Below are positions 23,912 through 45,060 of a stretch of 57,469 nucleotides of DNA, one piece after another. Source of the DNA: Halorubrum halophilum (lineage in GTDB: Archaea; Halobacteriota; Halobacteria; Halobacteriales; Haloferacaceae); contig NZ_BBJP01000008.1 of NCBI RefSeq assembly GCF_000739595.1, forward strand, positions 1-57,469, written 5' to 3'. The notes under the pieces were generated by a model, which was not told the origin of the DNA, searched no databases, and saw only the letters and a list, made by a program, of their open reading frames with translations. Every line of letters starts with the position of its first letter. Within the stretch, counting starts at the first letter, position 1. Made by a program: the position numbers and the translations under genes.

Positions 23912-24138
23912 AATTCAGTCGACCTCGGTTCGTCCCGTAGTTCTTATCAACATGGTGAGTGTTACCATTTTACTGTGATGGGGATCAAGAACGCTTACAT
24001 AATAAAATATAGTGATGGTTATGTAGCCGTTGTTAGTTACGCCACCGCGGAATGTGTAACTTATTTTGATCAATCGCCGGGTCGGTGGACGCGCTGGCGG
24101 TCAACGGGCGGGCCTCCCAAGACCACAGAGGTAACTAC
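23912..24138. promoter_or_regulatory. Divergent promoter region between cox-like operon and moeA
   Basis: This AT-richer spacer serves two divergent units. TATTTTATTATG-type sequence on the minus strand and ATAAAATATAG on the plus strand (about 23998-24013) are TATA candidates. Two GTGATGG-T/G stretches lie at about 23975 and 24013. A molybdate-responsive regulator would be expected here, but no known operator can be named. Confidence 0.45.
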
Positions 24139-25353
24139 ATGACCGACCGCGAACTCTCGAGCCGGACTGAAGCGACACGCCGACTGCTCGCCGAACGAAC
24201 GCGGCTGCTCAACGACGCTCCATCGGAGGGGGTCCCGCTGACGAAGGTCGACGGGCGGTCGCTCGCCAAACCAATCGTCGCCGGAGCCGATGTTCCGGCT
24301 CACGACGTGGCGACGATGGACGGGTTCGCGTTCGCGGCCGACGACGCGTACCCGTTACAGATCGTCGACGACGCCGTCGCACCGGAGGATGACCCGCCGT
24401 CGCTCGATCCCGGGAAAACCGTTCCGGTCGCGACCGGGGCACCGCTCCCGCCGAGCGCGACGGCGGTACTGAAACGCGAGGAGGCCGACTGCGACGGGAC
24501 CGCCCTCCGCGGGCCGCCGATCGAGGCCGGAGCGAACGTCTACCGGCAGGGGAGCAGCGTCACCGCCGGCGAGATCCTCGCTGAGCGCGGCGAAGTGCTC
24601 ACTCCGAAGGACGCGGCGCTGCTCCGAGATATCGGTCGGGAGACAGTTCCCGTCGCCGAGCGGTTCGCGGTCGCCGTACTGGCGACCGGGACGGAGATCC
24701 ACGAGGGCGTTCAGCCCGATCGGGACTCCGAGATGCTCGCCGGACTCGTCGACGAGTGGGGGCACGAGCCGACGCTCGTCGGGAGCGTCCCGGACGAATC
24801 GGAGCGCGTCCGCGACCGGATAGACGACCTCGCGGGCAGCTATGACGTGGTGGTGACGACGGGCGGGACGAGCGTCGGTCGCGGAGACCACGCGGTTGAC
24901 GCCCTCGGCGGGCTCGGCGAGCTCCTGTTCCGCGGCGTCGCGCTCCGTCCCGGACGCCCGGTGACGGCCGCCCGCCTCGACGACGGCACGGTCGTCGCCG
25001 CGCTGCCCGGCAAACCCGTCGCCGCCCTCTTCGCCGCCACGCTCGTCTGCCGCCCGCTCTTCGAGGGGGCGGACGCGACGGAACCGCTCCCCACGCTGAC
25101 GGCGACGCTCCGGCGCGACCTCGGCGTCCCCGACGACGCCATGAAGTACGCCGTCCCCGTCTCGCTGACCGGCGAGGGAGCGATGCCGCTTGGTCACGTC
25201 GACTCGGGGATCCGTATCTTTCGGCGGCGGTACCGGCCGGGACGGCTCGCCGCGAGCACCCGAGCCACCCGTGCCGACGCCGTTTGGATCACGGATCAGG
25301 GCGGTGAGAAGGGCGATTCGATCGCCGTCGTCCCGACGGAGGTCGTCCAGTGA
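24139..25353 (+). CDS. moeA: Molybdopterin molybdenumtransferase MoeA
   Basis: This is a 404-residue protein from ATG 24139 (MTDRELSS); an upstream in-frame start would add a non-conserved leader. Family motifs are LTKVDGRSLAKPIV, PAHDVATMDGFAFA, VPVATGAPLPPSATAVLKRE, GREVLTP-type GEVLTPKDAALL, the MPT-binding VVVTTGGTSVGRGDH and AALPGKPVAAL. MoeA inserts Mo or W into adenylylated molybdopterin, completing the basic cofactor needed by the Cox-like hydroxylase and formate dehydrogenase. It overlaps mocA by 4 bp. Confidence 0.9.
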   Translation: MTDRELSSRTEATRRLLAERTRLLNDAPSEGVPLTKVDGRSLAKPIVAGADVPAHDVATMDGFAFAADDAYPLQIVDDAVAPEDDPPSLDPGKTVPVATGAPLPPSATAVLKREEADCDGTALRGPPIEAGANVYRQGSSVTAGEILAERGEVLTPKDAALLRDIGRETVPVAERFAVAVLATGTEIHEGVQPDRDSEMLAGLVDEWGHEPTLVGSVPDESERVRDRIDDLAGSYDVVVTTGGTSVGRGDHAVDALGGLGELLFRGVALRPGRPVTAARLDDGTVVAALPGKPVAALFAATLVCRPLFEGADATEPLPTLTATLRRDLGVPDDAMKYAVPVSLTGEGAMPLGHVDSGIRIFRRRYRPGRLAASTRATRADAVWITDQGGEKGDSIAVVPTEVVQ

Positions 25354-26066
25354 CCGGGGATCCCGACGGTGATCCTCCAGCTTCCGGGGATCTCCCGGTC
25401 GTCGAGCCTCCCTTCGACGGCCATGCCTGGGATGGCTCGGGGGGCTCGGCTACGCCCGCGTCGCAGGTCGAGGAGTCGCCAATTGTTGGGGTCGTCCTCG
25501 CGGCCGGGACGAGTTCTCGCTTCGGCGACCAGAACAAGCTCCTCGCGACGTGGCGAGGCGAGCCGCTCGTCCGTCACGCGGCTCGCACCCTCCGTGAGTC
25601 CGCCGTCGACGGCGTCGTCGTCGTGACCGGTCACGACCGCGAGCGCGTCGGAGCCGCCGTCGCGGACCTCGACGTGACCGTCGTTCACAATGACGCGTAC
25701 AAGACGGGACAGGCGACGACCGTCCGGCGAGGCGTGGCGGCTGTCCGCGACCGGAACGGCGCGGCCGCCCTCATCGCGCTCGGCGACATGCCGTTCGTCG
25801 CCGTCGAGAGCGTCGATCGCCTCGTAGCGGCCTATCGAGCGAGCGTCGGAGACGCGCTCGCCGCCTGTTGTGAGGGTGTTCGGGGAAATCCGGTGTTGTT
25901 CGGCGATCGACACTTTGACGCCCTCTCCGACGTCGCCGGCGACACCGGGGGTCGCGAGATACTGCTGACCGACAACCGGTCCGTGCTCGTCGAGACGGGT
26001 GACGATGGCGTTCTTGCTGACGTCGATCGGCAGGAGGAGCTGGAGAGACTGCGAGAGCGGCGGTGA
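25350..26066 (+). CDS. mocA: Molybdenum cofactor cytidylyltransferase (MocA-like)
   Basis: This is a 238-residue protein from GTG 25350, which overlaps the moeA stop (GTGA). After a 45-residue Pro/Asp-rich leader comes the nucleotidyltransferase core: GVVLAAGTSSRFGDQNKLL (about 47-65), VVVVTGHDRE, GQATTVRRGV and ALIALGDMPFV with the metal-binding Asp. MocA converts Mo-MPT to molybdopterin cytosine dinucleotide, the form used by xanthine oxidase-family enzymes such as the adjacent Cox-like enzyme. The leader may be a start-site artefact. MobA-type (guanylyl) specificity cannot be excluded. Confidence 0.82.
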   Translation: MTGDPDGDPPASGDLPVVEPPFDGHAWDGSGGSATPASQVEESPIVGVVLAAGTSSRFGDQNKLLATWRGEPLVRHAARTLRESAVDGVVVVTGHDRERVGAAVADLDVTVVHNDAYKTGQATTVRRGVAAVRDRNGAAALIALGDMPFVAVESVDRLVAAYRASVGDALAACCEGVRGNPVLFGDRHFDALSDVAGDTGGREILLTDNRSVLVETGDDGVLADVDRQEELERLRERR

Positions 26067-26624: not shown

Positions 26625-28649
26625 TCACTTTCCGCAACGCTCGGCCCCGGCTGATTCGTCCCCGTTTCGCCTCTCTGGGCGGTCCCTCTCCGCTGATGGT
26701 AACGCGACCGACACGGTCGTGGCCCCGTGTCGGAGAAGCGGATCAGCCACGTTCGCCGGGAGGTAGACGGCCCCACAGCGAATGCCGTCGTCGAGCTGTA
26801 CCCTCGTTCGAACGGCGGTGCCGTCGCTCGAAACGTCGACAGTTGCGCCGGGATCGACGCCGAGCTCCCTCGCGTCGGTGGGATTGATACGAAGCGTCGG
26901 ATCGCCCGAAGACGCGTCGTCGTGAAATTCGCTCATGCGTCCCCCCGTCACTAACCAGAAGCCGTCGTCGGATCCGGGAGAGATGAGCGGCTGTGCCGAG
27001 CCGAACCGAGCGCGACTGTCGGCGGTCTCGAACTCGTCCCGGTACAACACGTCTCCGCAATCCACGGGCCACTGACTGCCCTCGCGTCCGATCTCGTCGT
27101 ACGACATTCCCACGTGAGTCGGCGCCACGCGGCTCAGCTCGTCGAACACGTCCGCGACGCTCGCGTAGTCGAATTCGTCTGGACGGTCAGTTACTCTGGC
27201 TCCGATATCGCTCAGTATTTCGAAGTCCGAGCGTGCCCGTTCCGGCGGTGTCTGCACCTGCTGCAGCCTCTGAACGCGGCGCTCAAGGTTGGTAACGGTG
27301 CCCTCCTTCTCCGCACCAGTCATAGCCGGGAGGACGACATCGGCGTGCTGCGTCGTCTCGTTCGACATGACGTCGACGACGACCAGCGTGTCGAGCGCAT
27401 CCAGCTGCTGTCGAACCCAGTCCGGATCGCGCTTGGAGATCGCGGGGTTTTCGCCGACCGCGAGCGCGCCGCGAATTCCGTCCCCGAACGACGTGAGCAT
27501 GTCCTTCGCGTGTGTTCCGGGATCCGAGGGCGGGGTAGTCCCCCATTCGGCAGCGACTCGCGCTCGGGCCGCCGAGTCGGTCACCGGCTGATGTCCGGGA
27601 AGTTTATCGGGGACGCAACCGGCGTCCGTCGCCCCCTGTTCGTTGGCGAGCCCGCGAAGGATGTAGAGGCCGGTTCCCGAACGGCCGACGTTTCCGGTCA
27701 ACAGCAGGAGATTGAGGAGCGCCGCCGAGGCGTTCGCGTCGCCCGGCGAGCCCTCGATTCCCGTTCCGACGAGTCCCGCGACGCGGTTGGCGTCCGCGAT
27801 CAGATCCGCCACTCGCTCTACGGACGTCTCCTCGACCCCCGCGGCAAGGAGCGTTTCGTCGGACGCGATGTCGCCGAGAGACGCCGCGAACCCCTCGTAC
27901 CCGCTGGTTCGTTCGTCGACGAACGTCCGATCGACGCCGCGCTCGTCTGCGTGTATTCGGGCGCTCAGGAGGTCGAACAGGAGCGCGTCCGTCCCCGGAC
28001 GCGGCTTCACGTGGATATCGGCGAGGCGCGTCGTCCGGTTCCCCGCCGGGTCGACGTGGACGAGCGTGGTGCCGTCGTTGACGGCGGGGCGAATGAAGCT
28101 ATTGAACGCGATCGGCTGGCGTTCCGCGGGGTTGGCACCCGCGACGACGATCACGTCCGCGTCCGGCAGGCTCGAAAGGCTGTTCGTCGTCGCCGGCCAC
28201 CCGACCCGCTCGGAGAGCGCACGAGCGGTCGATACGTGACAGAGTCGGGATCGGTTGTCAACGTTGTTCGTCCCGAGGATTCGGGCAAGTTTCTGGAGGA
28301 GGTAGTTCTCCTCGTTCGTCGAGTGGGGGGCGCCGAGAAACGCCAGCGCGTCGGGGCCGCCGCTCGCCAGTATCTCCCGAAACGACTCGACGACGCGATC
28401 GTACGCGGTCGCCCACGACACCGGCGTCAGCTCTCCGCCGCGGCGGACGAGCGGGCGTTCGAGGCGATTTTCCGGTGACTCGAACGCCCGTACTCCCTTC
28501 TGGCAGAGCCGGCCGTTCGGGTTCGCGGGACCGGCGACGCCGCGCGCTCGCGGCGGATCGCCCGGCTCCAGCCGGCAGCCGACCCCACAGAGAGAACACA
28601 CCGTTTCCGACCCCGTCGGCGACCGATCTCTCGCGTCGTCGCCCGTCAC
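26625..28649 (-). CDS. Second molybdopterin oxidoreductase (FdhA/nitrate reductase-like)
   Basis: This is a 674-residue protein from GTG 28649, overlapping the DUF1641 gene (GTGA). The N-terminal 4Fe-4S site uses Cys18, 21, 25 and 49 (CSLCGVGC and RLCQKG). The molybdenum-site motif is RLCHVSTA with candidate ligand Cys137 and His138, the CH pair seen in formate dehydrogenases. It has Molybdopterin and Molydop_binding domains and is about 85 residues shorter than FdhA. It could be a second catalytic subunit of a formate dehydrogenase complex, or an assimilatory oxidoreductase. Being last in the operon it is probably co-expressed with FdhA. Confidence 0.82.
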   Translation of the reverse strand: MTGDDARDRSPTGSETVCSLCGVGCRLEPGDPPRARGVAGPANPNGRLCQKGVRAFESPENRLERPLVRRGGELTPVSWATAYDRVVESFREILASGGPDALAFLGAPHSTNEENYLLQKLARILGTNNVDNRSRLCHVSTARALSERVGWPATTNSLSSLPDADVIVVAGANPAERQPIAFNSFIRPAVNDGTTLVHVDPAGNRTTRLADIHVKPRPGTDALLFDLLSARIHADERGVDRTFVDERTSGYEGFAASLGDIASDETLLAAGVEETSVERVADLIADANRVAGLVGTGIEGSPGDANASAALLNLLLLTGNVGRSGTGLYILRGLANEQGATDAGCVPDKLPGHQPVTDSAARARVAAEWGTTPPSDPGTHAKDMLTSFGDGIRGALAVGENPAISKRDPDWVRQQLDALDTLVVVDVMSNETTQHADVVLPAMTGAEKEGTVTNLERRVQRLQQVQTPPERARSDFEILSDIGARVTDRPDEFDYASVADVFDELSRVAPTHVGMSYDEIGREGSQWPVDCGDVLYRDEFETADSRARFGSAQPLISPGSDDGFWLVTGGRMSEFHDDASSGDPTLRINPTDARELGVDPGATVDVSSDGTAVRTRVQLDDGIRCGAVYLPANVADPLLRHGATTVSVALPSAERDRPERRNGDESAGAERCGK

Positions 28650-29383
28650 CGCTCTCTGATCCGGCGGCCCTGCGCTTTGAGCAGAGCGAGGAGGTAGCCG
28701 AGGCCGGCGCGGGCGTCACGGCTCCTGAGCCCGCCGAGCATGCCGAGAATGCCGACCGGCTTCGACTCGCGCTGCGCCTCGCCGACGCTCGCGAGGAATG
28801 CGTTCATCCCCCGAGCGGCGTCATCGTCCACCTCGAGGTCGGAGAACGTCTGCGCGAGGCCGACGAGGTTCTCGAGCTGTCCCTCCCGCTGGAGGTCCAA
28901 GACGAGGTCGAGCGCCTCGACGAGTTCGGTGCCGCTCTCTTCAAGCATCGTTGACAGCTCTTCAAGCTCTTCGGCGGACAGCGACTCGGTGAACGCCGTC
29001 GTGAGCTCCACCAGATCGTCAAGGTGTCCCTCCCGTTCGAGTTCGAGAACGGTGTCGAGCGACGCCGACAGGTCGTCGGCGTTCTCGCCGAGGTCGGTCG
29101 CCAGATCCGCCGCCCCGTCGGTCGAGAGCCCGTCCGCCGCCTGTACGAGGTTCGCGGCCGAGCCGGTGAGATGTTCGAGCTCTTCCTCGTCGGCGCTGGC
29201 GGCGACGATGATCGCCGTCGTGAGCGCGTCCTCCAGCTCGTCGCTCCTCTCGACCGCCTCCGCGAGCGCCGCTCCGTGGTCGTCGAGCGCCGCTCGGAGC
29301 GCCGCCTCCCCGTCGCCGTTCGTGCGCCGCTTGCTCGCGGCGTTCGTCGCCGTCTCCGGGTAGGAATCCTGTGGCTGCGCCAT
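28646..29383 (-). CDS. DUF1641 protein, formate dehydrogenase-associated
   Basis: This is a 245-residue, strongly acidic helical protein. Repeated Leu/Glu/Asp-rich helices (LDTVLELEREGHLDDLVELTTAF and LDLVLDLQREGQLENLVGLAQTF) form two similar units, and the C-terminus (SKPVGILGMLGGLRSRDARAGLGYLLALL) is the recognisable DUF1641 part. DUF1641 genes commonly sit with formate dehydrogenase genes in archaea and bacteria; the biochemical role is unknown. The gene is 1 nt after fdhA and overlaps the next gene by 4 bp, so it is inside the operon. Confidence 0.85.
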   Translation of the reverse strand: MAQPQDSYPETATNAASKRRTNGDGEAALRAALDDHGAALAEAVERSDELEDALTTAIIVAASADEEELEHLTGSAANLVQAADGLSTDGAADLATDLGENADDLSASLDTVLELEREGHLDDLVELTTAFTESLSAEELEELSTMLEESGTELVEALDLVLDLQREGQLENLVGLAQTFSDLEVDDDAARGMNAFLASVGEAQRESKPVGILGMLGGLRSRDARAGLGYLLALLKAQGRRIRER

Positions 29384-29384
29384 C

Positions 29385-31661
29385 TCAGTCGTCCCCCGTT
29401 GCTTCCGCGTCCGTCACCTGAACCGATTCCGCCTCACCCTCGTAGGGACCGATGCGAACGGCGGACACCTTGAACTCGGGCGTCGCCGCGGCCGGGTCGA
29501 GGTGTTCCTCGTCGGTGAGTCGGTTAACCGCGCTCTCGGCGAAGTGGATCGGGACGAAGACGTTGTCGGGGCCGACGCGGTCCGTCACCTGCGCCGGCAC
29601 GACGATCTCCCCGCGGCGCGACTCCACCTTGACCATGTCTCCGCTTTCGATCCCGTGATTCGCAGCCGTCTGCGGGTGGATCTCGATGAAGTCGCTCGGC
29701 GTGTACTGCATGATCCCCTCCTCACGGTGGGTCATCGTCCCGGTGTGGTACTGGTAGAGCACCCGCCCGGTCGTGAGGGTGAACGGGTACTGGTCGTCGG
29801 GCGTCTCCGCGGGTTCGCTGTACCCGACCCCCTGGAGGTTCGCTTTCCCGTTCTCCGTGTTGAACTCCTCGGCGTATAACCGCTCGGTGCCGGGATGGTC
29901 CTCGTCCCAGCACGGCCACTGGAGCCCGCCTTCTTCTTCGACGCGCTCGTGGCTGACACCGCCGTACAGCGGCGTCAACGAGTTCACCTCCTCCATGATC
30001 TCCGCCGTGTCGTCGTAGTCCCAGTCGCGGCCCATCCGGTTGGCGAGATCCTGGAGGATCTTCCAGTCTGGACGGGAGTCTCCCTTCGGCTCCATCACCT
30101 CGTTGACCATCTGGACGGTCCGGTCGGTGTTGGTGAACGTGCCGGTCTTCTCGACGAACGAGCACGCGGGGAGCACGACGTCCGCGTACTGGGCGGTCTC
30201 GTTGACGAAGAGATCCTGTACGACGAGGAACTCCAGGTCCTCGAGGACCGCCTCGGCGTGGTTGACGCCGGGCTCCGAGAGCGCGGCGTTCTCGCCGATG
30301 ATGTACATCCCGCGGATGTCGTCGTCGTCGGCCGCGAGGAACATCTGCGTCGTGTAGTAGCCGTACTCCGGCGAGATATCGCAGTCCCAGGCGTCCTCGA
30401 ACTTCGCGCGGATCTCGTCGTCGGCGATGTCCTGATAGCCGGGGAAGTTGTCTGGCAGCGGGCCCATGTCGCCACCGCCGCCCTGGACGTTGTTCTGTCC
30501 GCGGAACGGCGACACGCCCGTCCCCGGCTTGCCGAGGTTTCCGGTGATCGCCGCGAGGTTGGCCATCGCCAACACGTTCTCGGTCCCGTGGGAGTGTTCC
30601 GTAAGTCCGAGCGTCCAGCCGAAGACGCACCGGTCGGCGTCGGCGATGGTCTCGGCCGCCGAGACGATCTCGTCGTGGGGAATCCCCGTCACCTCCTCGA
30701 CGCGCTCGGGCGTGAACTCTTGGACCGACTCTTTCACGTCCTCGAACCCGGTCGTCCGCTCCTCGACGAACGCCTCGTCGTAGAGGTCGTTATTGATGAT
30801 GTGTCGCGTGATCGCGTTGATCCAGACCGCGTCGTATCCCGGGTTGACCTGACTGTACTGGGTCGCGTACTCGGCGATCTGGATCTCTCGCGGGTCGAAG
30901 ACGAGGAGGTCGGCGCCGTCCCGAACGTTCTGTTTGATCCGCGTCGCGAGCACCGGATGTGCCTCGGTGGTGTTCGATCCCGTGAGCAGGATACAGTCGG
31001 CGATCTCGAGGTCGTCGGTGCTGATCGAGGCCGCGCCGTAGCCGTACGTCTTGGCGAGGCCGGCGACAGTCGAAGAGTGACAGAGTCGATTGCAGTTGTC
31101 GACGCTGTTAGTGCCGAGCACCTGCCGGGCGAACTTCCCCATCAGGTAGTTCTCCTCGTTCGTCGCCTTCGACGAGGCGATCACCGACAGCGCTTCACCG
31201 CCGTGCTCCTCTTTGATCGAACCGAGGCCCTCCGCGACGCGTGTGAGCGCCTCGTCCCACGTCGCCTCGCGGAACTCCCCGTTTTCGTCTCGGACGAGCG
31301 GCGCCGTCAGCCGGTCGTCGGAGTTGATGAAGTCGTAGCCGAACTTCCCCTTCACACAGGTCGAAATGCCGTTGACCGGCGCGTCCTCTTCGGCGGTCGG
31401 TCGTGCGGCGAGGATCTCCTCGCCGTCCGAGTAGAGGTCGAACCGACACCCGACCGCGCAGTAGCCGCAGGTGGTGTCGGCGACGTTGAGCTCTTCCAGC
31501 CGCTTGTCGCCGATCGACTGGGCGATCTCGAACAGTTTCCCCTCCGACAGCGTCTCCGCGGCCACCCCCTCGGCGACGTGTTCGACGTTCTGTAACGCCT
31601 CCCGTTTCGCTTCCTGCATGTAGCCCGCGACGCCGTCGAGCTCGTCGTCGCTCACGGCCAT
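29385..31661 (-). CDS. fdhA: Formate dehydrogenase catalytic subunit
   Basis: This is a 758-residue member of the bis-MGD (DMSO reductase) family. An N-terminal extension (1-60) is followed by the 4Fe-4S site Cys65, 68, 72 and 102 (CGYCAVGC and TCVKGK). The active site NRLCHSSTVAGL has ligand Cys194 (Cys rather than Sec) and His195. Further motifs are TEAHPV, the GQNNVQGGGGDMG loop and the C-terminal Molydop_binding domain. It oxidises formate to CO2 using Mo or W. It overlaps the NuoG-like gene by 10 bp. A Tat signal is absent, so the enzyme is cytoplasmic. Confidence 0.92.
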   Translation of the reverse strand: MAVSDDELDGVAGYMQEAKREALQNVEHVAEGVAAETLSEGKLFEIAQSIGDKRLEELNVADTTCGYCAVGCRFDLYSDGEEILAARPTAEEDAPVNGISTCVKGKFGYDFINSDDRLTAPLVRDENGEFREATWDEALTRVAEGLGSIKEEHGGEALSVIASSKATNEENYLMGKFARQVLGTNSVDNCNRLCHSSTVAGLAKTYGYGAASISTDDLEIADCILLTGSNTTEAHPVLATRIKQNVRDGADLLVFDPREIQIAEYATQYSQVNPGYDAVWINAITRHIINNDLYDEAFVEERTTGFEDVKESVQEFTPERVEEVTGIPHDEIVSAAETIADADRCVFGWTLGLTEHSHGTENVLAMANLAAITGNLGKPGTGVSPFRGQNNVQGGGGDMGPLPDNFPGYQDIADDEIRAKFEDAWDCDISPEYGYYTTQMFLAADDDDIRGMYIIGENAALSEPGVNHAEAVLEDLEFLVVQDLFVNETAQYADVVLPACSFVEKTGTFTNTDRTVQMVNEVMEPKGDSRPDWKILQDLANRMGRDWDYDDTAEIMEEVNSLTPLYGGVSHERVEEEGGLQWPCWDEDHPGTERLYAEEFNTENGKANLQGVGYSEPAETPDDQYPFTLTTGRVLYQYHTGTMTHREEGIMQYTPSDFIEIHPQTAANHGIESGDMVKVESRRGEIVVPAQVTDRVGPDNVFVPIHFAESAVNRLTDEEHLDPAAATPEFKVSAVRIGPYEGEAESVQVTDAEATGDD

Positions 31662-32641
31662 TCACCCCCGCGCTCGGAGGCGTCTCCCCAGTCGTCGCCG
31701 TCCGCATGGCTCGTTTCGGTCTCGGTCTTCGTACCGGCCGATCTGTCGCCGCCGTCCGTCAGCGAGCGCTCGTCGGAAGAGTCCTCCGTCCGCTTTTTGG
31801 GTGTCATCGGTCCTTTCGTCTTCCCCGTGTTCTCGTGTGTCTTTCCGACGCTGTTCGTCTGTGTGAATCCCGGAAGCGGGATCGTCGTCGCGTCCTCGAT
31901 CCCCTTTTCCACGAGCGACCCCGTGGGGCAGACGGTCGCACAGTGCCCGCAGGAGACGCACGTCGAGTCTTCCATCGTCTCCGCGTCGCTCTGGAAACCG
32001 ATACGCGTGTCTTGACCGGAGCCCTCCATCCGGAGCACGCCCTCAACCTGGACGTCGTTACAGGCCTCGACACACCTGTTACAGAGGATACACTTGTTGC
32101 GGTCGATTTGGATGAACGACGAGGAGTCGTCGATCGGTTCGTACTCGTCGCGGTCGTCGAGCACGCCGTACCGCGGCTCCTCGACCTCCGCGTCGATGGC
32201 GGCGTCTTGGAGCTCACACCGACCGTTCTTCCCGCAGGTCGTACACCGGAGGTTGTGGTCCGATAAGACCAGATCGAGGTTCACGTCTCGCGCCTGCGCG
32301 GCGTCGGTCGCGTCGGTTCGGACCGTCATCCCGTCCTCGGCCGGGAAGCTACAGGCCGGGACGACGCCGTGCTCGTCGGTCTCGACCATACAGGTCCGGC
32401 ACTCGCTCCGAGGGCCGATCTCCTCCCGGCCGTAGTGACAGAGGGCGGGGACGGACTCGGCGGGCTCGATCGCCTCGACGGCGTCGATCAGCGTCGCGCC
32501 GGCCTCGACCGACACCTCGATCCCGTCGACTGTCACCGTCGCCGGCGCGTCACCCCCTACCGGCGGATCCGACGCCGTTCCCGGCGCGATTTCCTCTGTC
32601 AGTGGCGGTGCGTCGACTGCCTGCTGCTGTTCTGAACTCAT
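31652..32641 (-). CDS. NuoG-like Fe-S subunit of formate dehydrogenase
   Basis: This is a 329-residue protein from ATG 32641 (MSSEQQQ). Clusters in order: 2Fe-2S with Cys68, 81, 84 and 97; His129-Cys133-136-142 (DHNLRCTTCGKNGRC), the 4Fe-4S His motif of NuoG; then two ferredoxin 4Fe-4S clusters, Cys184/187/190/194 and Cys228/231/234/238. The C-terminal 75 residues are low-complexity charged. It would relay electrons from FdhA to the flavoprotein-like subunit, as in NAD-dependent formate dehydrogenases and hydrogenases. It follows the NuoF-like gene by 4 nt. Confidence 0.9.
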   Translation of the reverse strand: MSSEQQQAVDAPPLTEEIAPGTASDPPVGGDAPATVTVDGIEVSVEAGATLIDAVEAIEPAESVPALCHYGREEIGPRSECRTCMVETDEHGVVPACSFPAEDGMTVRTDATDAAQARDVNLDLVLSDHNLRCTTCGKNGRCELQDAAIDAEVEEPRYGVLDDRDEYEPIDDSSSFIQIDRNKCILCNRCVEACNDVQVEGVLRMEGSGQDTRIGFQSDAETMEDSTCVSCGHCATVCPTGSLVEKGIEDATTIPLPGFTQTNSVGKTHENTGKTKGPMTPKKRTEDSSDERSLTDGGDRSAGTKTETETSHADGDDWGDASERGGEWP

Positions 32642-32645
32642 TCTG

Positions 32646-34124
32646 TTAGGCCTCCAGTGGCTCAAGGCAGCTGCCGGCCGGACACCGGCCGTCGGCGTGC
32701 GCCTCGAATTCGGATTCGAACGCCGAAAGCGCGGTTCGGGTCGGCCGCCCGGCCTGGACCCCGAACGCGCAGATGCTCGACGTGGTCATCACGTCGATCA
32801 GTTCCTCGATCGCCTCCGGGTCGTATCCACCGTCGTACACGTCACGGAGCAGCCCGGCGAGCTGTGTCGTTCCCTCGCGACAAGGCACACAGCGGCCGCA
32901 GTTCTCGTCGGCGGCGAACTGCGCCCGCTGGCCGACGAACTCGACCAGACACCGATCGTCGGCCAACACGCGGACGACGCCCTCCGATCCTAGGTCGTTG
33001 GCCGCCAGCGCGTCCGGCTTCACGCCGACGGTCAGGTCGTCCGTCACGCCGCCGAACCGTCCGCCGACCGACGCCGCCTTGAACGCTCCCGTCATCTCGG
33101 CCGCGTCGACGACCGTCTCCAGCGTCTCGGAGGCCGGTACTTCGACCGTTACGGGGTCCGCGACGTCTCCCGTAACGGTCATCACTCGCGTTCCCGCGGG
33201 CTCCCCCTCCCGAAGCGCCACGGAGAGATGCGCGAGCGTTCGGGGGGTGTGAACGAGGGTCGGCCGGCCGTGGAGGCCGACCGCGTCGAGGTCTGGCGGG
33301 CGGATCCGGGCCTCCAGCCGGTGGTTCCCTTCGAGGGATTCGATCGCCATCGACGGCTCGGCCGCCCGATACTCAGCGGGACCGGTCTCGACGTCGACGG
33401 TGATCGGCGAGTCCGGGTAGTTCGCCGCCGCGTCCCGCACCGTCTGAACGGCGCGCTCGTCGTCGGCGGACGCGTACACGATGACCCGTTCGGCGCCCAC
33501 GGCGTCGGCGAGAGCCACGGCCCCGTCCAACGCCTCGAACGGCGCGCTCTCGAGTAAAAGCGTATCCGCGGCGTTCCCATGCGCGTTCACCACGACGACC
33601 GGGTCGCCCGCGGCGCTCCGGACGGACTCCCACGTGTCGGCGAGCGGCGCGTCGTGACAGAGGTCTCTCCATCCCCGCCCGTCGAGCGTCCCTCCAAGAT
33701 CGATCACGGCGTCCGGGTCCGGATCGACGAACCCGCCCACCGCCTCGTGGTCTGCCGGGTCCGTCGGCCGACGCCATCCACAGCCATCGAGGATCTCGCG
33801 TACACCGGTTCGTAACCCGGATAACTCCGGAGTCGGAAACGTCGTCTGGCCCGGCCCGTGATCGACGACAGCGTCAGGATCGGCTGCCGTCACGTCACCC
33901 GTCTCCTCGAACGCCCGTACGATCGCTTCGATCCGCTCGAGTGAACACCCCGTATGGAACCCCGTCTGACCGTCGAGCGTGACCATGACGAGCGGCTCCG
34001 CCGATACCACTCCAGTGGATCCGACCGCTACAACCGGTGTCTCGCCACCTGAAACCGATTCAGGGACTCGTTGTCGTCCGGAAATCCGGATCACTGGGCC
34101 ATCATCAGGTGAGTGTATTGTCAT
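32646..34124 (-). CDS. NuoF-like subunit with eroded NADH/FMN motifs
   Basis: This is a 492-residue protein resembling the NuoF/HoxF 51-kDa subunit. The C-terminal 4Fe-4S site (Cys409, 412, 415, 452; NCGRCVPCREGTTQL and SSICAFG) is conserved, as is the SLBB-like part. But the N-terminal glycine-rich NADH/FMN loop (GLRGRGGAGFP in canonical proteins) appears only as GGTLDGRGWRD, and the GEETALLNS-type motif reads AAEPSMAIESLEG. So NAD binding may be lost or altered. It is first in the Fdh operon and transcribed away from the OFA transporter. Its electron acceptor is uncertain. Confidence 0.8.
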   Translation of the reverse strand: MTIHSPDDGPVIRISGRQRVPESVSGGETPVVAVGSTGVVSAEPLVMVTLDGQTGFHTGCSLERIEAIVRAFEETGDVTAADPDAVVDHGPGQTTFPTPELSGLRTGVREILDGCGWRRPTDPADHEAVGGFVDPDPDAVIDLGGTLDGRGWRDLCHDAPLADTWESVRSAAGDPVVVVNAHGNAADTLLLESAPFEALDGAVALADAVGAERVIVYASADDERAVQTVRDAAANYPDSPITVDVETGPAEYRAAEPSMAIESLEGNHRLEARIRPPDLDAVGLHGRPTLVHTPRTLAHLSVALREGEPAGTRVMTVTGDVADPVTVEVPASETLETVVDAAEMTGAFKAASVGGRFGGVTDDLTVGVKPDALAANDLGSEGVVRVLADDRCLVEFVGQRAQFAADENCGRCVPCREGTTQLAGLLRDVYDGGYDPEAIEELIDVMTTSSICAFGVQAGRPTRTALSAFESEFEAHADGRCPAGSCLEPLEA

Positions 34125-34230: not shown

Positions 34231-34294
34231 CCTATGGAATAAGCAATTGGATACTCTATACATATCATTAAATCATTATAATCTTCCTTGGTTG

Positions 34295-35584
34295 ATGATG
34301 TCTACCGCAAACGCTGACAAGAACCGCTGGTTGATCGCAGTTTCGGCCGTTGCGATCCACCTGTCCATCGGAAGCATCTACGCGTACAGCATCTATCAAA
34401 TACCGCTGAACGAAACGCTCGGCTGGGAGACCGGCAGCGTCACGCTGGCGTTCTCCATCGCGATTCTCGTTCTCGGTTTCACCGCCGCCTTCCTCGGAAA
34501 GTACGTCGAGAAGTACGGTCCGCGGGCGGCAGCCCTCTCTGCGGCCGTCTTGTACGGGATCGGTATGGTAGGGTCGGGGCTCAGCGTCCAGCTCGGAATC
34601 CTCCCTCTGTTTCTCGCCACATTCGGCGTCATCGGCGGCATGGGGCTCGGTATCGGCTACATTTCACCTATCGGAACTCTCGTCGAGTGGTTCCCCGATC
34701 GGCGGGGTATGGCGACGGGCCTCGCCGTGATGGGGTTCGGCGCCGGCGCCCTTCTGACGGGGCCGCTGGGTAACTATCTGATCCAGAACTTCAGCGTCGC
34801 GATGGCATTTTACGCCCTCGGCGCCCTCTACTTCGTCCTGATGTCGCTCGGGGCGAGCTACCTCGAGAAACCGCCGGACGGGTGGCTTCCCGAGGGGATG
34901 CAAGACGAGGAGGATGCCCAAGAAAAGGCCGAAAGCGCGCTTCCGGGGCTCGATAATCTCACCGCCGTGGAGGCGCGCACGACGGCGCGGTTCTGGATGG
35001 TCTGGCTCATCATCTTCATCAACGTCTCCGCGGGTATCATGCTGCTCGCGTTCGCGTCGCCGATGCTCCAACAGATCGCCGGCGCGACCGCCTCGACGGC
35101 CGCGTTCATAACGGGCTACATCGGCATCTTCAACGGCGGCGGCCGGATCTTCTGGGCGTCCCTGTCGGACTATATCGGTCGGACGACCACGTACGGGGCG
35201 TTCTTCGGCATCCAGATCGTCGCCTTCCTCGCGATGCCGCAGCTCGCGGGCGTCTGGATCCTAGCGGCCACGATGTTCCTCGTTATTACTTGTTACGGCG
35301 GCGGGTTCGCCTGTCTCCCCGCGTACCTCAGTGACCTGTTCGGAACCAAAGAAGTGAGCGCGATCCACGGGTACTCCCTCACGGCGTGGGGGATCGCCGG
35401 CGTCGCCGGCCCGCAGCTCGCGTCGTTCATCCTCGAGTCGACAGGGAACTACACGAACGCGCTGTACGTGATGAACGGCGCGCTCGTCGTGGGGCTGATC
35501 ACGGTGCTCGTGCTTCGGTGGCGGATTGGCAAGCTCCAAGATACCAGCAGCCTCGACACGGGCGCCGCGGCAACAACCGACTGA
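34295..35584 (+). CDS. MFS transporter, OFA (oxalate/formate antiporter) family
   Basis: This is a 429-residue protein with about 12 hydrophobic segments. I start it at ATG 34295 (MMSTANADKNRW), or 34298, because upstream residues are not family-like. OFA/MFS features include HLSIGSIYAYSIYQIPL in TM1, the LGKYVEKYGPR loop, GIGMVGSGL, LVEWFPDRRGMATG, and DLFGTKEVSAIHGY. A cytoplasmic acidic linker (EDAQEKAES) separates the halves. Position beside the formate dehydrogenase operon suggests formate or oxalate as substrate, but OFA members also carry other small carboxylates. Confidence 0.85.
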   Translation: MMSTANADKNRWLIAVSAVAIHLSIGSIYAYSIYQIPLNETLGWETGSVTLAFSIAILVLGFTAAFLGKYVEKYGPRAAALSAAVLYGIGMVGSGLSVQLGILPLFLATFGVIGGMGLGIGYISPIGTLVEWFPDRRGMATGLAVMGFGAGALLTGPLGNYLIQNFSVAMAFYALGALYFVLMSLGASYLEKPPDGWLPEGMQDEEDAQEKAESALPGLDNLTAVEARTTARFWMVWLIIFINVSAGIMLLAFASPMLQQIAGATASTAAFITGYIGIFNGGGRIFWASLSDYIGRTTTYGAFFGIQIVAFLAMPQLAGVWILAATMFLVITCYGGGFACLPAYLSDLFGTKEVSAIHGYSLTAWGIAGVAGPQLASFILESTGNYTNALYVMNGALVVGLITVLVLRWRIGKLQDTSSLDTGAAATTD

Positions 35585-37492: not shown

Positions 37493-39169
37493 CTATCCAA
37501 TTCCGGTCTCCTTCTTCAGCAGCGTAAGCGTATTGTCGGCCGTCACAATGGGTGAGTGTTCGTACTCACCCGTCAGCTCGACCTGCACGAGCAGATCAAC
37601 CGCTCGCCAGATCGAGTAGAGCAGACACGCGAACGCGAAATAGAAGAATCGCAGCCCGAAATTCTTCGATGTAGTGGCGGCCATGAACCGCTTTATCGAC
37701 CTATAGCCGCTCTCGATCTCCCAGCGATAGCCGTACTCCGCGAGATGACCACTCCCCCGATTCGTCATGAACACCGAATACTGCCGATGATCGTGGTGCT
37801 CGGAGTCCTCTTTCCGTCGGTAGATCAGCGTCGTCTCGTGCCACTCGTTCTTGCCGAGATGGAGCTTCCGGTCGGTCTCGTACCGGTCCTGGCTCTGTTG
37901 GAGTAACCGCTTCGCCTGAGCTTTCTCGCTGGTCTGCATCCGTTTCGGAACGACGTAGGACAGTCCACGCTGGCTGATCATCTCCAGAACGTGCTGGCTG
38001 TCGAACTCCCGGTCCATCAGGACGTTATCGACGTGGACGAGCCCTTCAGCCGAATCCAGCAAGTCCTCAACGATTTCCTTGCGTGACTTACCTCGTCGAA
38101 CTGGCCGCGCATCGAGCACAAGTGGGACAGCATTACCGACCAGCTGGACTGTCGCCCACTGGTAGGCGTACTCGTCGGTGTTCTCTTTCGTTCCGAGAAT
38201 CTCGTCCTTGTGCCCACTTCGGTCACCCGTGAACGGGTCAGCTTCCGTGATATCGATCGCGATGATTCCCGCTCGAAAGAACTGCTCTGTCTCCGCGACT
38301 TCATCCAGTAGACGTTTCACTGCTTGGCGGTACATCTCGCGAATCTCCGCGATCGAGAGGTCACGAATATGCTCGCGATGGGCGTGCCCGAGTGGTGTCC
38401 GATCACGCGTTGACTCGCAAATGAAGCTCCGAGCCCCCTCGTTGGCAGCCAAGTTCTCGCGGAGACCGAGATAGGTCTGTAAGTCCCAGTAGGCGTTCTC
38501 ATGGATCTCACAACCCTCACCACGGTCCAATGAGAACGCCGGGAAAACGACGCGGCTGATGTGATCTGTGATCGCTTCCGCCTGTTCCAGTACAGTCTGA
38601 CCGTCTAGGTCGGACTCATCGGTGTCGTTACCTCGTTGGGGGAGCGTCCGTTTTGGGTCACGCGGAACGCTTACACCCGCGTTCTGGGCATTGATCAGGA
38701 TTGTCCGGGCGGCTGTCTCAACCGTCTCACGCAACTCACCCGTGAAGCGCTCGTGCCAGCTGCGCCACAGCGTCGACTGATTCGGAATTCTATCGAGCTC
38801 GAGTTGCTCGCGAAGTTCAGGGTGGCACTCGAGGAATTCGACGAGTGCCGTCTCGTGGTCCCATCCATGGAGTTCTTTCAGCACGAACACTCGAAAGAGG
38901 GTGTTCATCTCGTAGCGCGTCGACTCCGTGTAGCGGTCGTGGGCCTCGAATCTGAAGTAGGCTATTGGGAGTGTGCAGATGAACTGCTCCAGTGAGTCGT
39001 GTTCGTGGTGAGTAAACCAGACTTCCGAGACGATTTGAATATCCGATTCTAATCCGGCGAGTGAGGTTTGATCGTACAACGGCGTCGAATCATAGACTGG
39101 CCACTGGACGTACGGCTGTTGAGCGATTCGTCGAAAGACCGTGCGCTGTGACTCCCAGGTCGCAACCAC
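37493..39169 (-). CDS. IS4-type transposase, second subgroup
   Basis: This is a 558-residue DDE transposase, distinct from the copies at 13050 and 46012. The first Asp is in IIAIDITEADPF, the second in NVLMDREFDSQ, and the Y-(2)-R-(3)-E-(6)-K signature is YGYRWEIESGYRSIK with the catalytic Glu. It is intact by eye and lies inside the metabolic island between the aldehyde dehydrogenase and thiC. Terminal repeats were not resolved. It may separate the formate/Cox genes from the vitamin genes as a later insertion. Confidence 0.88.
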   Translation of the reverse strand: MVATWESQRTVFRRIAQQPYVQWPVYDSTPLYDQTSLAGLESDIQIVSEVWFTHHEHDSLEQFICTLPIAYFRFEAHDRYTESTRYEMNTLFRVFVLKELHGWDHETALVEFLECHPELREQLELDRIPNQSTLWRSWHERFTGELRETVETAARTILINAQNAGVSVPRDPKRTLPQRGNDTDESDLDGQTVLEQAEAITDHISRVVFPAFSLDRGEGCEIHENAYWDLQTYLGLRENLAANEGARSFICESTRDRTPLGHAHREHIRDLSIAEIREMYRQAVKRLLDEVAETEQFFRAGIIAIDITEADPFTGDRSGHKDEILGTKENTDEYAYQWATVQLVGNAVPLVLDARPVRRGKSRKEIVEDLLDSAEGLVHVDNVLMDREFDSQHVLEMISQRGLSYVVPKRMQTSEKAQAKRLLQQSQDRYETDRKLHLGKNEWHETTLIYRRKEDSEHHDHRQYSVFMTNRGSGHLAEYGYRWEIESGYRSIKRFMAATTSKNFGLRFFYFAFACLLYSIWRAVDLLVQVELTGEYEHSPIVTADNTLTLLKKETGIG

Positions 39170-41163: not shown

Positions 41164-41585
41164 CTATCTATCAGTCTGGACACTAGTGATTTCGAATCGT
41201 GCGCCTTCCTCGTCGCTGTCGGTCACGGTGATCTCCCACCCGTGAGCGTCAACGAACTGCTTGACGATATACAGCCCAGGCCCTCACCGTTGGTTGAGTC
41301 CTCCAATTCAAACACCTGCTCACCCACGTCTTCAGGGATACTCGGCCCATCGGCAGCCACGTTGAAGCCGTCCTCCAACTCACCAATCGTCACGGTCACG
41401 TCCGCACTCCCGTATTCGACCGCATTCCGAATCAAATTCTCCACTACTTGTCGGAGCCGACTCGCATCAGACTGAATCGTTTGCTCTGTGTCGGTGACCA
41501 GCGTCGTATCGGCTGTTGGAATGGTCTGCCAGCACTCACTCACTGTCTCCGCAAGATCAACCGCCTCAACCTCGCTCCGCCTCAC
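41164..41585 (-). pseudogene. Histidine kinase C-terminal fragment, frameshifted
   Basis: A HATPase domain is recognisable: SRLRQVVENLIRNAVEYG (N box), DGPSIPEDVGEQVFE (G1 box) and GEGLG (G2 box). At about 41280 one base is missing; in the next frame the reading continues as YIVKQFVDAHGWEITVTDSD and ARFEITSV, ending at 41164. The sensor, dimerisation and phospho-acceptor parts are absent upstream. Both truncation and frameshift make it a pseudogene. It lies between convergent thiC and the divergent bio operon. Confidence 0.8.
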
Positions 41586-41627
41586 CCTTCATCCTTATCT
41601 GAACACTGCCGTAAATGGAAGCCCAAG

Positions 41628-41634
41628 AATTATA
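41628..41634 (+). promoter_or_regulatory. TATA-like box of bio operon
   Basis: AATTATA lies about 27 nt upstream of the GTG at 41659. This spacing fits a leaderless transcript and supports GTG 41659 as the bioB start. Confidence 0.5.
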
Positions 41635-41658
41635 CTCTCGTCAACTGAGTTGGATAGT

Positions 41659-42774
41659 GTGGTTTACGAGACAGGGTATCGCACCGTCGATGACGCTGTC
41701 GCCCGCGTACTCGACGGCGAGACGCTCGACCGCCGGGATGGACTCGCGCTGATGGCCCAGCCGGTCGAGCCACTCGCCGAGGGGGCGGATTACGTCCGCT
41801 CCCAGCTTGGCGACGACACTGTCGACGCGTGTTCTATCGTGAACGCGAAGGCGGGCAACTGTGCAGAGGACTGTGGGTTCTGTGCGCAGTCAGTCCACTT
41901 CGACACTGGTATCGACACCTACGGCTTTCTCGACCCCGAAGAAATCCTCAAGGCGGCCAAGCAGGCCGAACGCGACGGCGCCCAGCGCTTTGGTATCGTC
42001 GTCGCCGAGAAAGGCGTCTCCAAGGAAAAACGCCCCGACGAGTGGGACGACGTCATCCGCGCAATCCGCTTAGTACGAGACGAAACCGACGTCGAAGTCG
42101 ACGCATCCCTCGGGATTCTCACCGAGGAAGAGGCCGCGATTCTCGCGGACGAAGGACTTAATCACTACAACCATAACATCGAAACCTCGCCGCGTTTCTT
42201 CCCCGAAATCGTCGGGACCCATGACTTCGAAGACCGCGTGAAGACGCTCGAAGTCGCCAAGGAAGCCGGCATGGACCTCTGTGCCGGAGTCATCCTGGGC
42301 ATGGGCGAATCGCCCACCGACCGCGTGGACGCGGCCATCGCGCTCCAGGATCTCAGCGTCTCCTCGCTCCCTGTCAACATCCTCAACCCGGTCGCCGGGA
42401 CGATGTTCGACGACCGGGAGGAAGCACTCATCTCCACGACGGAGACCGTCAAGACCATCGCGGTCTACCGACTGCTTCACCCGCACGCGAGAGTGCGACT
42501 CACCGGCGGCCGCGAGGTCAACTTCGCTGAGGACGAACAACACCTCCCCTTCGAGGCCGGTGCGGATGGCATCCTCACCGGGAATTACCTCACCACCGAG
42601 GGCCAGTCGCCCGGCGACGATATCGAGATGATAGAGCAGGCTGGCATGGAGCCCAATACCGAGGTCAACGATTTCGACCCGGAAGAAGTAAAATCCCGTG
42701 GCGACGACTCGGCCGACCCCGCGGACACGGCGGTCGGGACGGCCACGAGCAAGGCGGAACCGTCTGATGACTAA
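41659..42774 (+). CDS. bioB: Biotin synthase BioB
   Basis: This is a 371-residue radical-SAM enzyme that inserts sulfur into dethiobiotin. The start is GTG 41659 (MVYETGYRTVDDAV), chosen by family length and the TATA spacing. The radical cluster is CAEDCGFC (CxxxCxxC) after the VDACSIVNAKAGN stretch. Other motifs are AQSVHFDTGI, LNHYNHNIETS, CAGVILGMGES, LPVNILNPVAGT and FEAGADGILTGNYLT. The C-terminal 50 residues are an acidic extension. It is first of four tightly spaced bio genes and would need a second Fe-S cluster as sulfur donor. Confidence 0.94.
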   Translation: MVYETGYRTVDDAVARVLDGETLDRRDGLALMAQPVEPLAEGADYVRSQLGDDTVDACSIVNAKAGNCAEDCGFCAQSVHFDTGIDTYGFLDPEEILKAAKQAERDGAQRFGIVVAEKGVSKEKRPDEWDDVIRAIRLVRDETDVEVDASLGILTEEEAAILADEGLNHYNHNIETSPRFFPEIVGTHDFEDRVKTLEVAKEAGMDLCAGVILGMGESPTDRVDAAIALQDLSVSSLPVNILNPVAGTMFDDREEALISTTETVKTIAVYRLLHPHARVRLTGGREVNFAEDEQHLPFEAGADGILTGNYLTTEGQSPGDDIEMIEQAGMEPNTEVNDFDPEEVKSRGDDSADPADTAVGTATSKAEPSDD

Positions 42775-42795
42775 CACAGAGATACAGCAACAGCT

Positions 42796-43842
42796 ATGAC
42801 CGACATCAATTTCGCCGTTCTCGGCACTGGTGGTATCGGGCGTCGCGCACTCGAAGTTTCCGCGGACAAAGACGAACTCACTCCCATCGCAGCTTGCGAC
42901 CGCCACGGGGTCGCCGTCGACCACGACGGCCTCGACGTGGACGAACTGCTGGCCGCGACCGAGGGGAACATCGCTTCCGACGGCGGGACTGCCGCCGAAG
43001 TCGGCGGTGGCGGCATCAAGGAACACGGCGACGACAAGGGCGTCGTTGCCTCCGCACAGGCAGTGCCGACGGAGACGCCTATCGAGGACATCATCGCTGA
43101 ACACGAGGCCGTCGACGCGGTACTCATCGCGCTGCCGAACCTCGAACACGACTTCATCCCCAACGTCGCCGAGCGCTTCGCGAACGCGGGCTACGAGGGC
43201 GTCCTCGTCGACGTGCTCAAGCGTTCGCGCGTCATCGGCATGCTCGATGACCGCGAGGAACAACTCAAAGAGTCAGGCATCACGTTCGTCTGCGGTGCGG
43301 GCGCGACGCCCGGCTTCCTCACGGGCGCGGCGGCACTCGCCGCCCAGTCGTTCGTCGATGTCGAGGCGGTCGAAATCTGGTGGGGCGTCGGCCTCAAGTC
43401 CGGCTACGAGGACAACCGTGGCACCGTGCGCGAGGACATCGCCCACCTCCCCGACTACGACATCGAGTCGGCACGCGCCCTTCCGGACGAGGAGATCGAG
43501 GAAATCGTCGACGCCCACGACGGTGTCATCGAGTTCAACGACATGGAGCACGCCGACGACGTGCTTCTCGAACGGGCGGGGATCTGCGACGCTGAGGACG
43601 TGACCGTCGGCGGCGTCCTTGACCTCCGCAACGACGAGAAGCCCACAACGACGACCGTCAAAGTCACAGGTCGCACGTTCGATGGTGAGGTCGGTACCAA
43701 CACGTTCGAACTCGATGACGACACGAGCATGGAAGCCAACGTGAACGGCCCTGCACTCGGCTACCTGAAGGCTGCCGTCCGCCGCAACTGGACCGGCGAT
43801 TACGGCGTCTACGGGCCTGCCGAGCTCATGCCCGGGTTTTGA
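42796..43842 (+). CDS. BioU-like / saccharopine dehydrogenase-like oxidoreductase
   Basis: This is a 348-residue Rossmann-fold protein (INFAVLGTGGIGRRALE at the N-terminus). The later core has AVLIALPNLEHDF, GVLVDVLKRSRVIGML and VCGAGATPGFLTGAAALA. Its place between bioB and bioF, 21 nt after bioB and 3 nt before bioF, points to a biotin role. Cyanobacterial BioU, annotated in the past as saccharopine dehydrogenase-like, makes DAPA from KAPA in place of BioA, using a lysine of its own as amino donor. No bioA is visible here. Lys142 (VLKRS) is a candidate for that residue, but alignment is needed. Assignment is by context and fold. Confidence 0.7.
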   Translation: MTDINFAVLGTGGIGRRALEVSADKDELTPIAACDRHGVAVDHDGLDVDELLAATEGNIASDGGTAAEVGGGGIKEHGDDKGVVASAQAVPTETPIEDIIAEHEAVDAVLIALPNLEHDFIPNVAERFANAGYEGVLVDVLKRSRVIGMLDDREEQLKESGITFVCGAGATPGFLTGAAALAAQSFVDVEAVEIWWGVGLKSGYEDNRGTVREDIAHLPDYDIESARALPDEEIEEIVDAHDGVIEFNDMEHADDVLLERAGICDAEDVTVGGVLDLRNDEKPTTTTVKVTGRTFDGEVGTNTFELDDDTSMEANVNGPALGYLKAAVRRNWTGDYGVYGPAELMPGF

Positions 43843-43845
43843 ACC

Positions 43846-45060
43846 GTGCAGCAGCAGATGGATCGAGGGTTCGACCTCGAAGCACGCCTCCAGTCCCGGG
43901 AAGAACGTGGGCTCCGTCGCGACCTCGCTCCTGTCGACCGTGTCGAGCCGAGGGCTCGCCGGGTGCCCGACCCCGGTGCCGACGTACCGGCCTTCGACGC
44001 CGATGCCGAGGAAATGCTGGTGTTCGCAGCCAACGACTACCTCGGACTCGCGGGAGACGCCAGACTGGCCGAGGCAGCCGCACGGACAGCCCATGAAGTC
44101 GGCACTGGCGCGGGCGCCAGCCGGCTCGTCGTGGGCGATACATCCGCTCACCGCGAGCTCGAACACGCACTGGTCAAATCGAAAGAAACCGAGCGTGCGC
44201 TGGCGTTCTCCTCGGGGTACGCCGCCAACATCGGGACGATTACGGCGCTCGCCCCCGACGCGATCTTCTCCGACGAACTCAACCATGCCTCCATCATCGA
44301 CGGCTGCCGGCTCTCCGGCGCCGATATCGAGGTGTACGACCACTGTGACGCCAGCGACCTCCGGACGACCATGGACCGCCGTGCCCGCGAAGCAGATGGG
44401 GAGGAATCCTGGCTGGTCGTGACAGATTCGGTATTCAGCATGGATGGCGACATCGCTCCACTCAGAATGATATGTTCGGCCACCGAGCGCCACGGCGCGT
44501 GGGTGATGGTCGACGAAGCCCACGCGACGGGCGTGTACGACGGCGGCATGGTCGGTCAGCTGGGACTCGAAGATCGGGTTCATGTCCAGTTGGGGACCCT
44601 CTCGAAGGCGCTTGGTGCCCAGGGCGGGTTCGTCGCCGGGAATGAGATGCTCATCGAGTACCTGGCGAATGCGGCCCGTTCGTTCGTCTTCTCGACCGGG
44701 CTCTCCCCGCCTGCGGCGGGTGCCGCACAGGAGGCGCTACGTATCGCACGGGAGACGGACCGCCCCCAGACGCTCCAGGATCACGCCGATTACCTCCGGT
44801 CGGGGTTTGAAGACCTCGGCTTCAGGGTGCTCGGTGAGACCCACATCCTGCCCGTGCTGGTCGGAGACCGGGAGGATGCGGTTGCGCTCGATGAAGCGCT
44901 CCGGGACCGCGGGGTGCTCGCCCCTGCCATCCGCCCGCCGACCGTTCCCGTGGGGATGTCACGGCTGCGCGTCGCTCCCACAGCCGCACACACGCGCGAG
45001 CAACTCGACCGCTGTCTCGACGCGTTCGAGGCCGCCGGCGAGGAGGTGGGGCTGCGATGA
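43846..45060 (+). CDS. bioF: 8-amino-7-oxononanoate synthase BioF
   Basis: This is a PLP-dependent alpha-oxoamine synthase. It runs to 404 residues from GTG 43846, or 400 from ATG 43858. Motifs: FAANDYLGLAGDARL, GTGAGASRLVVG, FSDELNHASIIDGCRL, VMVDEAHATGVYD and the PLP-lysine motif GTLSKALGAQGGF. It condenses pimeloyl thioester with alanine to give KAPA. It follows the BioU-like gene by 3 nt and overlaps bioD by 4 bp, as expected for coupled translation. Confidence 0.93.
   Translation: MQQQMDRGFDLEARLQSREERGLRRDLAPVDRVEPRARRVPDPGADVPAFDADAEEMLVFAANDYLGLAGDARLAEAAARTAHEVGTGAGASRLVVGDTSAHRELEHALVKSKETERALAFSSGYAANIGTITALAPDAIFSDELNHASIIDGCRLSGADIEVYDHCDASDLRTTMDRRAREADGEESWLVVTDSVFSMDGDIAPLRMICSATERHGAWVMVDEAHATGVYDGGMVGQLGLEDRVHVQLGTLSKALGAQGGFVAGNEMLIEYLANAARSFVFSTGLSPPAAGAAQEALRIARETDRPQTLQDHADYLRSGFEDLGFRVLGETHILPVLVGDREDAVALDEALRDRGVLAPAIRPPTVPVGMSRLRVAPTAAHTREQLDRCLDAFEAAGEEVGLR

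Follow-up and report, generated by a model that had tools for sequence, protein, structure and literature searches.

The NuoF' operon

The window analyzed here, a stretch of 57,469 nucleotides from the 3.68 Mb genome of the haloarchaeon Halorubrum halophilum, carries five minus-strand genes that overlap or almost touch one another (Table 1). The first is an intact reading frame starting with ATG and encodes a NuoF-like protein, called NuoF' here. It is followed by genes for a protein resembling the N-terminal part of NuoG (NuoG-N), the catalytic subunit FdhA, a DUF1641 protein and a second FdhA-like molybdenum protein (Mo2). Two Mo-cofactor genes and a transporter gene lie nearby on the other strand. 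The transporter, also present at several other loci of the close relatives described below as group A, is a possible substrate importer, and its membership of the operon is uncertain. Elsewhere in the window, a transposase gene with a partial ISH3-family match (NF033541, under the cut-off) lies between aldehyde dehydrogenase and thiC genes (37493-39169, minus strand), and a biotin cluster runs from bioB through a BioU-like gene (NF047886, under the cut-off) to a bioF-like gene (41488-45060, plus strand).

Table 1. Features of the NuoF' operon and its surroundings in the window.
Feature	Position	Strand	Basis
NuoF', predicted flavin-less NuoF/HydB-type subunit, 492 aa	32646-34124	-	PF10589, weak PF01512, hhalign to canonical NuoF
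Remodelled Gly-rich FMN loop, residues 149-154, GRGWRD (canonical GRGGAG)	33663-33680	-	W/R in fourth and D in sixth position, 79/79
Former NADExEPG loop, residues 180-187, NAHGNAAD, 4-residue deletion	33564-33587	-	alignments
Former YICGEETALIN motif, residues 252-262, YRAAEPSMAIE	33339-33371	-	alignments
Former NNVET motif, residues 292-296, HTPRT	33237-33251	-	R in fourth position, 79/79
N3 [4Fe-4S] ligands Cys409, Cys412, Cys415	32880-32900	-	conserved in group A, 30/30
Fourth N3 ligand Cys452	32769-32771	-	conserved in all group A and B sequences
NuoG N-terminal-like Fe-S subunit: 2Fe-2S, His-Cys N5-type, two 4Fe-4S motifs	31652-32665	-	PF13510, PF10588, Fer4 families; motifs kept across loci
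FdhA catalytic subunit, Mo ligand motif CH...RGQ	29385-31661	-	TIGR01591 (Fdh-alpha), 830 bits vs 666 cut-off
DUF1641 protein, ForE-like candidate quinone-linking subunit	28646-29383	-	PF07849, E 3.7e-9; adjoins fdhA in 29/29 of clade
Second FdhA-like Mo protein (Mo2), motif CH...RGL	26625-28649	-	in 26/29 clade loci
Divergent monocarboxylate (lactate/oxalate-formate type) MFS transporter	34247-35584	+	NF049980, 407 bits vs 320 cut-off
MoeA-like Mo-cofactor gene	24085-25353	+	neighbour
MocA/MobA-like nucleotidyltransferase gene	25350-26066	+	neighbour; Mo-cofactor genes span 24085-26066

The NuoF ancestry of the protein is clear from profile comparison (hhalign against canonical NuoF, 100%, E 2e-54, 455 columns), and its best match in the PDB is the bifurcating hydrogenase subunit HydB 8a6t (phmmer, E 1e-33). 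Pfam finds the NADH_4Fe-4S domain (PF10589, E 6e-21) and, weakly, the Complex1_51K FMN domain (PF01512, E 2e-10, 41.1 bits against a cut-off of 31.2), the latter beginning at profile position 21. The NuoF equivalog model TIGR01959 gives 107 bits, below its cut-off of 559. NuoF' is the only PF10589 protein of the genome, and a member of its family from Halorubrum persicum shares 72% identity with it. No NuoE-type partner was found in the operon and no complete NuoE in the genome, where the sole match to the 2Fe-2S thioredoxin family (PF01257) is partial and lies elsewhere, in a 545-aa frame.

The FMN and NADH pocket

Residues were mapped onto E. coli NuoF by MAFFT alignment. The E. coli stretch GRGGAGF reads GRGWRDL in NuoF', NADEMEPG has become NAHG followed by a four-residue gap that covers MEPG, and YICGEETALIN and NNVET have been replaced by the motifs given in Table 1. 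At single positions, Gly64 corresponds to Trp152, Gly66 to Asp154, Lys72 to Thr164, Asp92 to His182, Glu93 to Gly183 and Glu183 to Pro257, while NNVE has changed to HTPR (residues 292-295). Independently of MAFFT, hhalign placed the same NuoF' residues in the same columns.

In the structure of the NiFe-HydABCSL hydrogenase, Lys177, Asn194 and Glu197 bind FMN and Glu287 binds the NAD ribose (PMC8880783); the active site of Aquifex NuoF includes E184 and the E95-S96 peptide (PMC6560083). When the HydB numbering was carried to E. coli NuoF by motif, Lys177, Glu197 and Glu287 corresponded to Thr164, Gly183 and Pro257 of NuoF', and only the Asn of these four HydB residues persists. NuoF' also lacks the N-terminal, thioredoxin-like cysteines seen in the HydB type. 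As judged from these alignments, the FMN and NADH residues are nearly all gone from NuoF'. An AlphaFold2 model of NuoF', made with three relatives in the alignment, reached a pLDDT of 44 and a pTM of 0.33.

Loss of the FMN and NADH residues across the family

Searches of 391 Halobacteria genomes with NuoF' gave matches in 180 at E <=0.001, a count that includes FMN-intact and very weak matches. We aligned 30 close relatives (group A), 49 more distant ones (group B) and 11 remote haloarchaeal sequences together with E. coli NuoF. The FMN/NADH residues are replaced in all 79 group A and B sequences and present in 23/23 outgroup NuoF proteins. Moreover, the replacements are uniform: at the E. coli positions, Trp or Arg stands at G64, Asp at G66 and Arg at E220 in every one of the 79, and His at N217 in 78. 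Nine of the 11 remote sequences (group C) have intact FMN/NADH motifs, and the genes around them encode NuoE, a NuoG-like protein and NiFe-hydrogenase subunits.

In other Halobacteriota, all 13 homologues, from 12 loci, are of the FMN type; a pattern match finds GRGGxGF in 12 of them, and GEETA and NADE are retained in the remaining one. No FMN-less NuoF was thus seen outside Halobacteria among these 13, with bacteria represented by E. coli only. In a tree of 104 sequences (quick search, with SH-aLRT support only), all 23 FMN-type sequences fall on one side of a single branch with a support of 100, which points to one loss of the FMN site. The relatives' sequences and the tree also rule out a sequencing error or a single-strain accident. 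On this sequence evidence, a flavin-free NuoF subfamily attached to formate dehydrogenase-type operons is widespread in Halobacteria. Most of the haloarchaeal megaplasmid copies listed carry the label 'NADH-ubiquinone oxidoreductase-F iron-sulfur binding region' protein, and a literature search that covered few subscription journals returned no paper that describes a NuoF lacking flavin or the haloarchaeal operon itself.

The other two remote sequences come from solitary, more degenerate NuoF' genes without fdhA beside them (L132:2946-4496 and L133:8271-9860); most of their FMN-domain motifs are gone, and cysteines are present at the four N3 positions. The group C loci (L122-L131) hold an FMN-intact NuoE-NuoF-NuoG set by Oxidored_q6 and NiFe-hydrogenase large-subunit genes, a candidate NAD-linked hydrogenase.

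Has the pocket simply decayed? We compared the per-column entropy of the FMN/NAD-lining stretches with that of the rest of the core, using 5000 random column sets. In group A, the pocket averaged 0.51 against 1.08 for the rest, and none of the 5000 sets was as low; in group B, the values were 0.93 and 1.28 (p 0.013). The former NADExEPG loop is an exception to this raised conservation. The pocket columns hold a new set of residues, GRG-W/R-GD, GPxEYRAAEP and HTPRT. Core positions are often conserved for folding alone, and the raised conservation therefore speaks against mere decay but is no proof of a new ligand. Pairwise dN/dS was 0.11-0.40 for NuoF' and 0.02-0.10 for FdhA, and NuoF' is kept by purifying selection. 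Pseudogene decay is ruled out by the intact reading frame, the dN/dS below 1 and the 79 relatives.

These results bear on the sequence-only reading of the gene, which had described the nucleotide-binding motifs as eroded and the Gly-rich and GEETALL-type motifs as unreadable, with GGTLDGRGWRD (residues 144-154) and AAEPSMAIESLEG (residues 254-266) in their place. The motifs are indeed replaced, alike in all 79 relatives, but the GRG triplet, Asn180, Tyr252 and E256, the first Glu of GEE, are retained, so that part of the Gly-rich/GEE loop can still be read. 'Eroded' does not fit a pocket that is remodelled in 79/79 relatives, more conserved than its background and under purifying selection. 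On the other hand, the alignment with haloarchaeal FdhA-associated homologues, which that reading had proposed as a check, showed the FMN/NADH contacts not to be conserved (79/79), and its suggestion that the subunit does not reduce NAD is supported: judging from the residues lost, NuoF' very probably does not.

The N3 cluster

The same reading had placed a conserved C-terminal 4Fe-4S site at Cys409/412/415/452, and the alignment bears this out at exactly these positions. All four N3 cysteines are kept in group A (30/30). In group B, Cys2 and Cys4 are kept in 49/49, and one clade of 14 sequences (SH-aLRT 100; L065, L066, L074, L076, L079, L080, L084, L134-L137, L143, L151 and L153) has Ser in place of Cys1 and Gly in place of Cys3. 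Two further group B sequences elsewhere in the tree also have Gly at Cys3. The four-cysteine N3 site is thus dispensable in some of these enzymes. The FdhA partners of the depleted proteins still have their Fe-S and Mo motifs in the loci where these are readable; wherever the motifs could be read, neither the upstream clusters nor the Mo site were seen to disappear along with FMN. Consequently, the earlier proposal of an Fe-S relay stands in part: the retained N3 site suits a relay, but such a role would not be family-wide, as the sister clade is without two of the four cysteines.

The formate assignment

FdhD has been described as crucial to the activity of formate dehydrogenases (PMC8808070). 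Many of the 391 Halobacteria carry fdhA, and no FdhD was detected in any of them with PF02634 at E <=0.01, a search that did recover it in control archaea and bacteria; in the 12 Halobacteria genomes tried with TIGR00129, no match exceeded the cut-off. We therefore treat the formate activity of the window's FdhA as putative. Halodesulfurarchaeum nevertheless grows on formate (PMC5437934), so that a different sulfurtransferase may be at work in Halobacteria. FdhD may be replaced by a diverged or unrelated enzyme of this kind, or the haloarchaeal FdhA enzymes may need none.

The electron acceptor

If NAD is not the acceptor, where could the electrons go? The window's clade comprises 29 sequences (SH-aLRT 100), and the DUF1641 gene directly follows fdhA in all of them; Pfam confirmed the family (PF07849) in the window and in eight orthologues. 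Group B loci have a different layout, mostly of two genes, with NuoF' beside an FdhA fused to NuoG-N domains. A profile made from the window's own DUF1641 protein detected none near group B loci (0/42), the PF07849 matches listed for group B-type genomes being located elsewhere in the genome, and no conserved extra partner gene beside these loci hinted at an acceptor. DUF1641 proteins occur in 221 of the 391 Halobacteria; they must have other partners too and are not specific to this enzyme.

In Bacillus subtilis, the DUF1641 protein is ForE, which is required for the formate:menadione activity and the menaquinone binding of ForC, a single chain with five Fe-S clusters and a Mo site, and ForCE has no NuoF (PMC8808070). 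Haloarchaea use menaquinones (PMC5437934), and the window's genome encodes MenA. The role of ForE, the haloarchaeal menaquinones and MenA together give quinone the strongest support of the acceptors considered for the window's enzyme. Among the acceptors put forward earlier (ferredoxin, quinone or the second Mo protein), quinone is thus favored by the gene that adjoins fdhA in 29/29 loci, and the second Mo protein, found in 26 of the 29, is dispensable.

By this analogy, the enzyme is probably an NAD-independent, quinone-linked formate dehydrogenase in which NuoF' serves as a flavin-free Fe-S relay or scaffold. The full account, which we hold with slightly better than even confidence, is of a Mo/W formate dehydrogenase consisting of NuoF', NuoG(N), FdhA and DUF1641, together with Mo2, with a flavin-free NuoF' and a menaquinone exit. 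Formate would be oxidized at the Mo site of FdhA, and the electrons would pass along the clusters of FdhA and of the NuoG-like subunit, with no reduction of NAD, and exit to menaquinone at the ForE-like DUF1641 interface, as in Bacillus ForCE. NuoF' with its N3 cluster would act as a side relay, or else cap the NuoG-like subunit in a structural role. The quinone route alone does not account for the strict conservation of N3 in the window's clade, since ForCE works without NuoF.

Other roles for NuoF'

Could the old pocket have been rebuilt into a new site that takes up the head group of a quinone, a docking partner or some other ligand? NuoF' would then be an FMN-free electron exit, new to the literature found, and two N3 cysteines would have been lost later in one clade. 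We regard this as a tentative proposal, doubtful on present evidence and consistent with the conserved new residues described above.

An unlikely alternative is that N3 passes electrons to a soluble ferredoxin docked at the old NADH site, and that this ferredoxin feeds the haloarchaeal complex I, which lacks an NADH module. N3 is invariant in group A and present even in the solitary genes, and a complex I that lacks the NADH module, with ferredoxin as its proposed electron donor, has been described in sulfur-respiring haloarchaea (PMC5437934). However, no conserved ferredoxin gene was found next to the operon, and the proposal leaves both the constant DUF1641 neighbor and the sister clade's loss of two N3 cysteines unexplained.

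Slightly less likely again, NuoF' could lie off the main electron path and merely stabilize or cap the NuoG-like clusters, N3 being a remnant on its way to loss. The N3-depleted group B sequences, whose FdhA partners keep their clusters where these are readable, fit this, as does the activity of B. subtilis ForCE without a NuoF (PMC8808070). The four invariant cysteines of the window's own group (30/30), the purifying selection and the raised conservation of the pocket columns speak against it.

That NuoF' still binds FMN and NAD(P) in a diverged pocket is improbable. The residues retained, the conserved pocket columns and a PF01512 score above the gathering threshold would allow it, but the Lys and the acidic FMN/NAD residues disappeared together with the EPG loop, a bulky Trp or Arg and an Asp stand where glycines line the flavin, and the genome has no complete NuoE that we could find. 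Least probable of all is electron transfer between FdhA and Mo2, coupling formate to a reduction or oxidation there: in most sequences, Mo2 retains the cysteines for its Fe4S4 cluster, the catalytic Cys-His and the Arg-Gly pair (with RGL in place of RGQ), and it is present at most loci of the clade, but it is absent from L002/L110 and L109, unseen in L100, where the record starts nearby, and by dN/dS the fastest-evolving operon protein in most pairs compared.

Comparison with known enzymes

With NuoF, Nqo1, HydB and FdsB, NuoF' shares the fold family (455 columns), the N3 cysteines and a place beside a NuoG-type Fe-S protein and a catalytic subunit; it differs in its replaced FMN/NADH residues, its shorter NADExEPG loop, the missing thioredoxin-like N-terminal cysteines and an operon without NuoE. 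B. subtilis ForCE (YjgCD, YrhED) has the same NuoG-N and FdhA cluster set and an adjoining DUF1641 subunit (PMC8808070), whereas the haloarchaeal unit has NuoG-N as a gene of its own and additionally NuoF' and Mo2. The active sites differ too, CH...RGQ in the haloarchaeal FdhA and CQ...RGH in ForC (PMC8808070), and for this reason we do not class the window's enzyme as ForCE. The NAD-dependent cytoplasmic FdsABG enzymes likewise combine an FdhA with NuoG-type clusters, a NuoF-type subunit and the CH catalytic motif, but the haloarchaeal operon is without FdsG/NuoE and its NuoF-type subunit without the FMN/NAD site. Within the same archaeal class, the hydrogenase-linked NuoEFG sets of group C include a NuoF homologue; unlike the NuoF' operon, they have intact FMN/NADH residues, NuoE, and hydrogenase subunits instead of FdhA.

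Implications

In complex I, hydrogenases and formate dehydrogenases alike, the NuoF-type module is taken to be the port for NAD, and genome annotation follows this view. With a flavin-less subfamily, metabolic reconstructions that derive NADH from formate through NuoF' would be wrong. Furthermore, the graded series of proteins with FMN and N3, without FMN and with N3, and without FMN and two N3 cysteines would make the dispensability of each cofactor testable in the cultivable Haloarcula hispanica and Haloterrigena turkmenica, in both of which members of the NuoF' family are present.
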